Shown here: positions 1-2,888 of the stretch, in pieces
Layout: each line of letters begins with the position of its first letter
Numbering within the stretch: the first letter of the stretch is position 1
Assembly: GCA_947490615.1 (NCBI GenBank)
Contig: CANLHK010000004.1
Span: forward strand, 186,001-250,000
Source: Planctomycetaceae bacterium
Lineage (GTDB): Bacteria; Planctomycetota; Phycisphaerae; Phycisphaerales; SM1A02
Reading direction: 5' to 3'
Length of the DNA stretch: 64,000 bases
Notes under the pieces: model-generated
Seen by the model: the letters and a program-made list of their open reading frames with translations, nothing else
Told to the model about the DNA's origin: nothing
Database searches by the model: none
Position numbers and translations under genes: made by a program

Positions 1-444
1 CGTGCCCGCGACGCTGCCGAAGAGGAGACTGCGCAATCCACCCTGCGCGCCCGAGTCGTGCGATTGCACCGACGAGAGCAGCACCGTGCCCAACCCGAAG
101 AAGAACGAAAGCGAGACGGCGATCGCGCCGTCAGGGCCGACGCCGCGCAGTCGTGCGAGTGCAGGAACGCTGACGGACGCGAGGAGCGCGCTGCAACTCG
201 CGCCAAGCACGAGAAGCCATGGCGTGCGCCCGCCGACACCGAGCGCTTCACCAAGAAGAAATCCGATGCAAACACCAGGAAGGCTCGCGTGGCCCGCGAC
301 ATCTGCGATGAGCGCCTGTCTTCGCGCGAGGACGAAGGTCCCGACTGCTCCCGCAACGGCTCCAAACAACGCGCAGCCGAGGAGCGCCACGAGGGTGTTG
401 CGCCCGATCTCCGCCAAGACGAGTGGCAGGAGATTCTGGGTCAC
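1..444 (-). CDS. Metal ABC transporter permease (ABC-3 family), partial
   Basis: This is the N-terminal 148 codons of a polytopic inner-membrane permease that runs off the left edge. The GTG start shares a GTGA overlap with the stop of the ATPase gene before it, so the two are translationally coupled. After a first hydrophobic segment comes LARRQALIADVAGHASLPGV, the loop typical of ZnuB/MntB/TroC-type permeases (RRxALxxDAxxHASLPG), followed by further hydrophobic segments. With the ATPase and the binding lipoprotein it would form the membrane channel of a Mn2+ or Zn2+ importer. The adjacent MntR-like regulator and the absence of a His-rich loop in the binding protein favour manganese, but that is inference. 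The rest of the gene lies outside the window. Confidence 0.85.
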   Translation of the reverse strand, partial: MTQNLLPLVLAEIGRNTLVALLGCALFGAVAGAVGTFVLARRQALIADVAGHASLPGVCIGFLLGEALGVGGRTPWLLVLGASCSALLASVSVPALARLRGVGPDGAIAVSLSFFFGLGTVLLSSVQSHDSGAQGGLRSLLFGSVAGT

Positions 445-1283
445 GAGTTGCGCTCCGCGTCGTGTGCCGTGTCAGGCGCCGTGTTGAGCGCAAGGCCATA
501 CGCGCGCGCCACGCTCGCGTCCGCAAGTGTGGCGCGCACTGGACCGTGGGCGAGGACGCGCGTGTTGAACAGAATCGCATCGGCGAAGATCGAACGAACC
601 GTGCCGAGGTCATGGTGCACCGCGAGGATCGTCGTGCCCTGCGCGCGGAGCTCCTGCAAGACGCGCGCGATGGTCTGTTCGGTCACCTCATCGACATTGG
701 CGAAGGGTTCATCGAGCAGCACCAACTCAGCGCGCTGCACCAACGCGCGCGCCACGAGAACGCGCTGGCGTTGGCCGCCTGAAAGTTCGCCAATGGGTTT
801 GTCCTGCGCGTGGGCGAGCCCAACAAGCGCGAGCGCTTCGCGTGCTTCAGCGCGTGCTGCGCGACCCACGCGACGAAACAATCCGAGTCGCCCGTAGAGT
901 CCCATCGCCACGATGTCGAGCGCCGACGCGGGGAAACTCCAATCGAGTTCCGATCGCTGTGGGAGATAGGCGACCTTGCCGCGCACGCGCTCGAGCGGCT
1001 CGCCGAAGAATCGCGCAGCCGATGGATCATGCACAGGCGTCAGTCCGAGGATCCCTTTGAGCATCGTGCTCTTGCCAGCGCCGTTGGGACCAACAAGCGC
1101 CGTCATGCTGCCGCGTTCGAGCACGAAACTCGCATCGACGACAGGGAGTTCACTGGCGGAATAGCCTGCACTGAAGTTGCGAAGTTCGAGCGGAGCGTGC
1201 AGACGAGTCGGGCTCTCCGTTGCACTCTTTGCGGGCCTCGTGCCCGCCGAACCTTCAAGCGCACCGCGCGTCGCGTCCATCAT
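441..1283 (-). CDS. Metal ABC transporter ATP-binding protein
   Basis: Cytoplasmic ATPase of the metal importer, 280 aa. Walker A GPNGAGKST lies at residues 65-73, followed by the signature LSGGQRQRVLVARAL and Walker B LVLLDEP. The order and spacing fit the MntB/ZnuC/TroB group. I chose the ATG that overlaps the stop codon of the binding-protein gene (ATGA). A longer reading frame starts 25 codons upstream but would lie entirely inside the preceding gene. The roughly 30-residue N-terminal leader before the ABC fold (LELRNFSAGY) is longer than usual and not obviously functional. The gene sits between the substrate-binding lipoprotein and the permease, with 4-nt overlaps on both sides, so all three are one operon. 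Confidence 0.9.
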   Translation of the reverse strand: MMDATRGALEGSAGTRPAKSATESPTRLHAPLELRNFSAGYSASELPVVDASFVLERGSMTALVGPNGAGKSTMLKGILGLTPVHDPSAARFFGEPLERVRGKVAYLPQRSELDWSFPASALDIVAMGLYGRLGLFRRVGRAARAEAREALALVGLAHAQDKPIGELSGGQRQRVLVARALVQRAELVLLDEPFANVDEVTEQTIARVLQELRAQGTTILAVHHDLGTVRSIFADAILFNTRVLAHGPVRATLADASVARAYGLALNTAPDTAHDAERNS

Positions 1284-2278
1284 CGCGACGCTCCTGGAAC
1301 CACGCCGCCGAGACTCGCCGCGATGACTCTCGCGTTGTGACGGAGCATGCCCTCCCAATTTCCCTCAGGAGTGTCGGGTCGTCCCATCGAGTCGGAGAAC
1401 AGTGGCTCGCCGATCTTCAGTTGATGTCCGATGGCGGCGCATCCTTCCACGAGTGCACGAATCGTGCGATCCGACACGGTGGTTTCCACGAACGCCGTCG
1501 GCACGCGTCGCGCAGAAATCTCAGCGACGAGATGCTCGATGTCGGTGATCGATGCTTCACTTTCGGTTGAAAGACCTTGGATGCCGTAGACGGTGAGCCC
1601 GAAGCGTCGACCGAAGTAGGCAAACGCGTCGTGCGCCGAGACCAGCGTGCGATGCTCAGAAGGAATGGACGCGATGAGCTGCTCGCACTCTTTCTCTAAC
1701 AGCGCTGCGCGCTCGCGGTAGAGCGCGGCGTTGGCGCGGAACTCGCCCTCATGAGTCGGATCAAGTCGCGAGAGCACATCGGCCACAGGAGCCGCGGTCT
1801 GTCCCCACAGCGCGGGATCCATCCACACGTGCGGGTCAAAGTACGACGCGCGATTGGGATCGGTGAGCAACTCAGTGCGGGTGATTGACTGCGCGACACG
1901 CAGCACAGGGCGCCCCATGCTCTCGACGCGCGCGAACGCGTCACCCACGCGACCTTCGAGCATGAGCCCGTTGAGGAACACCGCTTGCGCATCGAGAATC
2001 CGCAGCACATCTGTGCGCGTCGGCGTCCACAAGTGGGGGTCGACGCCAGGGCCGATGAGGCAGACGACTTCAGCGCGCGGACCAGCGACCGAGCGCACCA
2101 CATCGGCGACCATCGGCGTGGTCGCAACAAGAAGCGGGAGTTCGGCATGCTCACGCGGTGGCGTGGCGTTCACGGTCGGTCGTGCCGCAGGTCGGTCGCA
2201 GCCGACCAAGCACACGGTCAGCAAGACCACGAACGACGCAAGCACGGCGACGAGGATGGAGGTGGCGCGATGTAGCAT
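1280..2278 (-). CDS. Metal-binding lipoprotein of ABC importer (TroA/MntC/ZnuA family)
   Basis: Extracytoplasmic binding protein of a cluster-9 metal importer, 332 aa. A lipoprotein signal peptide ends in LVGC (Cys27). The expected metal ligands are visible: His in DPHLW, His in DPHVWMDP, His in SAHDAFAYF and a C-terminal Asp in PLFSDS. The His-rich loop common in Zn-specific ZnuA proteins is missing, which with the adjacent MntR-like regulator favours Mn2+. It heads the operon (binding protein, ATPase, permease). The ATG lies inside a perfect 16-bp palindrome and no Shine-Dalgarno sequence is possible there, so initiation may be leaderless. No other in-frame ATG precedes the signal peptide. 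Confidence 0.88.
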   Translation of the reverse strand: MLHRATSILVAVLASFVVLLTVCLVGCDRPAARPTVNATPPREHAELPLLVATTPMVADVVRSVAGPRAEVVCLIGPGVDPHLWTPTRTDVLRILDAQAVFLNGLMLEGRVGDAFARVESMGRPVLRVAQSITRTELLTDPNRASYFDPHVWMDPALWGQTAAPVADVLSRLDPTHEGEFRANAALYRERAALLEKECEQLIASIPSEHRTLVSAHDAFAYFGRRFGLTVYGIQGLSTESEASITDIEHLVAEISARRVPTAFVETTVSDRTIRALVEGCAAIGHQLKIGEPLFSDSMGRPDTPEGNWEGMLRHNARVIAASLGGVVPGASR

Positions 2279-2302
2279 ATGCTACATGTAGCCTACGCTA
2301 CG
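2271..2302 (-). promoter_or_regulatory. Tandem MntR-like operator overlapping the transporter start codon
   Basis: Two adjoining 16-bp copies of TGTAGC-N4-GCTACA. The first (2271-2286, TGTAGCATATGCTACA) is a perfect palindrome; the second (2287-2302, TGTAGCCTACGCTACG) has one changed end base and a non-palindromic spacer. The first contains the ATG of the binding-protein gene (2278-2276). The arm/spacer pattern TAGC-N4-GCTA matches the core of the E. coli MntR box as I recall it (ATAGC-N4-GCTAT). The site lies between the mntR-like gene and the transporter operon, where a Mn-dependent repressor site is expected. The repeat is seen directly; regulator identity is inferred. Confidence 0.75.
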
Positions 2303-2369: not shown

Positions 2370-2888
2370 CTAGCGCCCGAGATAGCGGGCCATGGCCTTC
2401 AAGGTCGCCGCCGAGCAGTGGTGCTCGATGCCTTCAGCGTCAAGTCCCGCGGTGCGGTCGTCGACGCCTAAAGCGCGCAGAAAGTCGATCACGAGGTCGT
2501 GACGGCGTTTGGCCTCCGCCGCGAGCGTCCGACCTCGGGTGGTGAGGCCGAGCGGCTTATGGGGTTGGGCCTGCACAAGGCCTTCACTGGCGAGTCGCCG
2601 CACCACGCGACTGACCGTCACATGGGAAAGCCCAAAGCGTTCGGCAATGCGCCCGACGCGTGCTTCGACCCCTGCATCGAGCAGGTCCGCAATCGCCTCG
2701 CAGTAATCCTGCGCCGCTTCGGTCTCGTGCTGAGCCCGCAGAACGCGGTGGCGTTCGGCCGACGCGGCAGGACGCACCGCGACGGACGACTTCGCGGTCG
2801 AACTCGGCGGGGGAGTGGTCTTCTTCTTCGCGGCCATGGAGAGTCGTTGCTCAGGAGGAACTGTGGATCGGGCTCGCCGCGGCGTCAC
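2370..2888 (-). CDS. mntR: MntR/DtxR-family metal-dependent transcriptional regulator
   Basis: DNA-binding metalloregulator, 172 aa. A Lys/Pro/Ser-rich N-terminus is followed by HETEAAQDYCEAIADLL, a winged helix (RIAERFGLSHVTVSRVVRRLASEGLV) and the dimerisation/metal-binding part with RHDLVIDFLRALGV and DAEGIEHHCS. These match the MntR branch (RHxxVxxFLxxLGV, DAEGMEHHVS). There is no C-terminal SH3-like domain, again as in MntR. The GTG start used here overlaps the acs stop (GTGA). An internal ATG at 2837 (MAAKKK) is an equally possible start, and neither has a clear ribosome binding site. The gene lies directly upstream of the metal ABC operon and a tandem palindrome that is its likely target. 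Confidence 0.87.
   Translation of the reverse strand: MTPRRARSTVPPEQRLSMAAKKKTTPPPSSTAKSSVAVRPAASAERHRVLRAQHETEAAQDYCEAIADLLDAGVEARVGRIAERFGLSHVTVSRVVRRLASEGLVQAQPHKPLGLTTRGRTLAAEAKRRHDLVIDFLRALGVDDRTAGLDAEGIEHHCSAATLKAMARYLGR

Follow-up and report, generated by a model that had tools for sequence, protein, structure and literature searches.

The closest described counterparts of the site analysed here are the MntR boxes of E. coli K-12, where TAGCAAAGGCTA stands before mntH and two TAGCN4GCTA boxes stand before mntS. The earlier note on this DNA had given the E. coli core as TAGC-N4-GCTA, and this core is indeed present upstream of both genes. The MntR boxes of the Lysobacteraceae module are inverted palindromes that precede Mn-responsive genes, and fusions were used to test them (PMC13217887). 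Operators placed over promoters are known from corynebacteria: those Zur targets of C. glutamicum that are transcribed from the A of the ATG carry the operator over the core promoter (PMC2823685), and in C. diphtheriae, where 20% of genes are leaderless, one target has its -10 region covered by a DtxR site (PMC5784534). TANNNT before the start codon is a known leaderless signature (PMC3160421), and leaderless and/or S1-dependent initiation has been suggested for a set of phyla that includes the Planctomycetes, represented by one species (PMC5397173). Our literature search on MntR in planctomycetes returned MntR as a lone mention only, and a search pairing MntR with the letters of the half-site returned no match.

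Here we analyse a 64-kb stretch of planctomycete DNA (the window), in which a 32-bp element lies between an mntR-like gene and a metal transporter operon. We consider it very probable (about 0.82) that this element is a tandem MntR operator, where metal-loaded MntR would keep RNA polymerase from a promoter, leaderless or nearly so, that forms part of the operator itself. Four things are observed: the sequence of the element, how it is conserved, that it is linked to MntR and to the transporter, and the promoter context in which relatives have it.

The paired boxes and their neighbours

The earlier note had described two abutting 16-bp TGTAGC-N4-GCTACA elements, the first perfect and containing an ATG, and both the coordinates and the mismatch counts agree with our own. 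Predicted box 2, the start-proximal one (TGTAGCATATGCTACA, 2271..2286, minus strand), is a perfect 16-bp palindrome with 0 mismatches to the pattern and has the ATG inside. It is directly abutted by predicted box 1, upstream in the direction of the operon (TGTAGCCTACGCTACG at 2287..2302, CGTAGCGTAGGCTACA on the minus strand), which has 1 mismatch. All remaining matches to the pattern in the window have 3 mismatches, no better than chance. The window contains two copies of the core TAGCN4GCTA, both at the operator, against 0.06 expected, and two cores were reached in 0 of 100 shuffles of the window. The exact box is found once in the whole 3.26-Mb genome, at the start of the operon. Across 151 genomes of the order, exact boxes are not more numerous than matches to a reversed control pattern, so we rejected the genome-wide count as evidence; it is the position of the boxes, not their number, that lies far beyond chance.

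Two other 1-mismatch sites in the same genome were considered as further members of the regulon and rejected. Both overlap ORFs of at least 100 aa and are probably due to chance: one (L002) lies within a 207-aa ORF, the other (L004) overlaps a 101-aa ORF on the minus strand and is also ~45 bp upstream of a 388-aa ORF. A search of this genome for an mntH target gave only a distant Nramp-like match (63.7 bits), with no exact or 1-mismatch box nearby.

All genes of the locus are on the minus strand, in the order acetyl-CoA synthetase (acs, 4903-2885), mntR-like regulator (2370..2837, 155 aa, with a GTG start at 2888 also possible), 67 bp, box 1, box 2, substrate-binding protein, ATP-binding subunit and permease-like frame. 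The regulator gene, claimed earlier to lie just upstream, thus ends 67 bp before the boxes. Between the stop codon of acs and this GTG start there is a 4-bp overlap (2885-2888), and acs and mntR stay together in the genus (L053, L054, L057) even where the metal transporter is elsewhere.

The regulator belongs to the DtxR/MntR family. Its best family is NF008273 (E. coli-type MntR, PRK11050), matched over 140 of 156 positions with 149.1 bits (E 7.7e-44), narrowly under the curated cut-off of 153 bits. Both DtxR-family domains are present above their cut-offs, the N-terminal DNA-binding domain (PF01325, 37.0 bits) and the C-terminal metal-binding and dimerisation domain (PF02742, 42.7 bits), and the closest solved relative is E. 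coli MntR (2h09). Residues D44, E47, H113, E135, E138 and H139 align with D8, E11, H77, E99, E102 and H103 of B. subtilis MntR, the six metal ligands of that protein, and all six positions are invariant across 17 relatives.

The operon begins with a TroA-like metal ABC transporter substrate-binding lipoprotein (1280..2278, 332 aa, ATG at 2276..2278). It is followed by a metal ABC transporter ATP-binding protein (441..1286), AztA/MntA-like at scores under the curated cut-offs, and by a hydrophobic frame (1..445) which runs off the window and, from its position, is presumably the permease subunit. In the alignment the third metal-site position of the substrate-binding protein is a histidine (AHDAF), as in TroA, and the His-His-Glu-Asp site of the PsaA/MntC type is not matched. 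Judged from the regulator, Mn2+ is the most likely metal, but with a TroA-like binding protein carrying this third histidine the metal may also be zinc or iron.

Distribution of the box in relatives

The earlier note had expected the motif upstream of orthologous operons in related planctomycetes, and it is found there, at transporter operons and/or mntR across the genus, the family, the order and other phyla. The 27 kb next to 34 mntR orthologues contain 19 exact boxes, whereas 340 kb lying further from these genes contain 0, and 179 permuted half-sites of the same letters gave 0 exact palindromes near these genes. The enrichment is specific to the 4-bp spacer. Among 80 named loci, 20 exact boxes are near mntR and 1 is further away. 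The relatives that carry names are Planctomycetota, placed by kinship in the order Phycisphaerales. The exactly abutting pair occurs in 19 of 400 genomes of the order, as against 0 of 400 for the reversed-pattern control. MntR orthologues have the box beside them not only in planctomycetes but also in alphaproteobacteria and verrucomicrobia. Two genus members (G002 and G006) have the transporter operon away from mntR. Their acs-mntR locus shows no box, and the tandem box goes with the transporter, which identifies the transporter as the target of the operator. In this genus mntR itself appears to be without a box of its own.

The spacing of tandem boxes differs by lineage. Start to start it is 19 bp in four relatives (G084, G092, G122 and G135), as in E. 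coli mntS, and wider in three others (21 bp in G149, 22 bp in G143 and 26 bp in G134). The neighbouring genes vary as well. In L070 (7395-9776) and L065 the box follows mntR and an extra gene stands between this box and the substrate-binding protein; in L070 this gene encodes a 434-aa protein that is porin-like by eye and may be a metal porin of the outer membrane, belonging to the regulon. In L064 (6460-8388) the box precedes mntR, and the next gene after mntR encodes no transporter but a multicopper oxidase (PF07731, PF07732), a possible link to manganese oxidation. In L063 (7167-9071, from G038) the box sits between mntR and a divergent 634-aa ORF with no Pfam match.

Promoter, start codon and alternative readings

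In many other relatives the box forms the spacer of a sigma-70-type promoter, with the last four bases of the box beginning the -10 hexamer. The composite TTGACN-N4-TGTAGCNNNNGCTACANT (TTGACN-N4-box-NT) was found in 20 distinct cases in relatives, 18 of which give TANNNT. No consensus sigma-70 promoter was found at the site in the window. In its own genome a strong leaderless signature is widespread: in a scan of the window and of one contig (G000, C1:1-400000, L200-L219), 19 of 141 constrained starts have TANNNT at a distance of exactly 6 nt, with about 0-2 cases at nearly all other gaps, and the 6-nt matches share the consensus CGNTA[GC]NCT-N6-ATG and have no -35. This leaderless-type signature recurs in genus members L046-L056.

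In the operators of the genus the centre of the box spells a -10-like element. TANGCT is present in the last box region before the start in 12/12 genus operons, as opposed to 1/9 partner boxes, and in L163, where the last box is degenerate, TATGCT is kept. Comparison of start-proximal and partner boxes for the NTAN pattern gives a Fisher p of 4e-5, a value that is too small because the genomes are related. The gap from TANGCT to the start is 7-8 nt in most genus operons and 10-11 nt in the clade of the window. In the window, the candidate -10 element TAGGCT in box 1 (2290..2295, minus strand) lies 11 nt ahead of the ATG, for a predicted leader of about 5 nt. In a scan of 50 nt it is the top match to the own-genome leaderless-promoter matrix (p 0.0007 per position), and TANNNT at a gap of 11 is rare in this genome. 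A weak alternative candidate, TACATG at the junction of the boxes (2285..2290, minus strand, 6 nt before the ATG), is in the exact leaderless register but ends in G rather than T, so that neither candidate combines the strict 6-nt register with the final T. With either of them, transcription would begin ~0-5 nt before the ATG, within the operator. The leaderless initiation on which the earlier note had made part of its argument conditional is thus favoured by the genome-wide signature, while the transcription start of this particular operon is a prediction.

The frame of the substrate-binding protein cannot be extended upstream, since the TGTAGC of box 2 itself supplies an in-frame TAG two codons before the ATG. 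Among 12 genus operons compared, 7 have an ATG 4 nt past the last box, and 5 of these have an additional in-frame ATG in the box. The start is 5 nt past the pair in L171 and 8 nt past a single box in L161, the latter being the distance of the window ATG from box 1. In the window, L162 and L163 it is the in-box ATG that opens the frame. In most of L192-L199, which represent another family, ~12-20 nt separate the pair from the ATG, and this gap often holds a Shine-Dalgarno-like AGGAG.

Could the in-box ATG of an otherwise genuine MntR operator be incidental, a spacer ending in AT that happens to spell ATG with the following GCTACA, with translation starting later and the overlap having no function? 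Box 2 spacers do frequently end in AT, in five genus members the in-frame ATG 4 nt past the box is the likelier start, and the window offers a possible later one in a GTG that lies 33 nt downstream. That GTG, however, would strip the signal peptide of its positive residue, the N-terminus MLHRAT agrees with MLQRAA, MLHRTA and MPHRAT of relatives, and in L162 the in-box ATG is the sole ATG, GTG or TTG ahead of the lipobox. We therefore regard an incidental ATG as unlikely: the in-box start is forced in L162 and is likely in the window, and the overlap of start and operator is probably real, yet it looks like a local end-point of having the operator at the extreme 5' end of the gene. In other words, the operator does seem to swallow the start codon here, as the earlier note had it, but this is specific to the lineage, the start elsewhere being mostly 4-8 bp past the box.

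Two further readings fare worse. That the boxes belong to another metal regulator, of the Fur/Zur family or a second DtxR-like protein, could be argued from the TroA-like transporter, which is possibly for zinc, and from the several genus members whose acs-mntR locus lacks the box, so that adjacency of box and mntR is not universal. We think this very unlikely, as the genome contains a single match to the mntR-like regulator, E. coli mntH and mntS carry the same core, and the box goes with MntR orthologues in all three groups named above. Action of the palindromes in RNA, where two hairpins would hide the start codon whether or not a metal sensor takes part, is hardly credible. A transcript spanning both boxes would fold into two hairpins (-15.5 kcal/mol, z -2.3), but the first 39 nt counted from the predicted transcription start show no more folding than shuffled sequences, and in relatives where the box is a promoter spacer it would not be transcribed whole. 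Moreover, the half-site is conserved as sequence and not as pairing, since no other palindrome of the same letters occurs.

Reading the pair as MntR boxes is thus supported by the sequence comparisons, and from them we infer MntR binding, the identity of the metal, the position of the -10 element, the transcription start and repression. In the proposed mechanism MntR loaded with metal, most likely Mn2+, and encoded just upstream would bind both boxes, and the bound dimers would cover the -10 region, the transcription start and the first codons. RNA polymerase would be excluded from the TroA-like uptake operon when the metal is plentiful and released when it is scarce. More speculatively, the operator, once bound, might serve as a roadblock against read-through from mntR as well, because mntR is co-directional just upstream and no terminator-like site was found at this locus. 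We further suggest, tentatively and at somewhat less than even odds, that in this genus one 32-bp element has come to combine the MntR operator with the -10 element and the start codon of a leaderless or near-leaderless mRNA, the operator centre being selected for a -10 hexamer and the abutting boxes permitting cooperative binding at the site of initiation. Operator, promoter and coding constraints would then be read from the same bases.

Comparison with known systems

The type of site is already known, and its unusually compact packing is a local variation specific to the lineage. What the locus adds is that the E. coli-type MntR box, its core unchanged, reaches into the Planctomycetota, where it defines a sharp and checkable regulon. 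It also suggests how an operator may absorb the promoter and the sequence for initiation where leaderless-type promoters are widespread in a genome, so that one repressor footprint could span promoter, transcription start and start codon. Among the putative parts of the proposal the most interesting is the merging of operator and -10 element with the start codon.

An experimentally mapped parallel to the proposed operator is C. glutamicum Zur at leaderless promoters (PMC2823685). The corynebacterial Zur and DtxR cases involve other regulators and motifs, and their promoters were mapped by experiment, whereas that of the window is deduced from sequence. The Lysobacteraceae MntR module is from Gammaproteobacteria and has other targets, and the part of its description used here notes no operator over a start codon (PMC13217887). 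With the E. coli boxes the window shares an identical TAGC-N4-GCTA core and a metal-uptake gene as target; mntS likewise has two tandem boxes, and the mntH box is likewise close upstream of the start. The flanks differ from TGTAGC/GCTACA in E. coli (2 mismatches at mntS), and the mntS boxes are 19 bp apart, whereas those of the window abut at 16. The E. coli target is an Nramp transporter rather than an ABC transporter, and its start codon lies outside the box, in contrast to that of the window, which lies within it.
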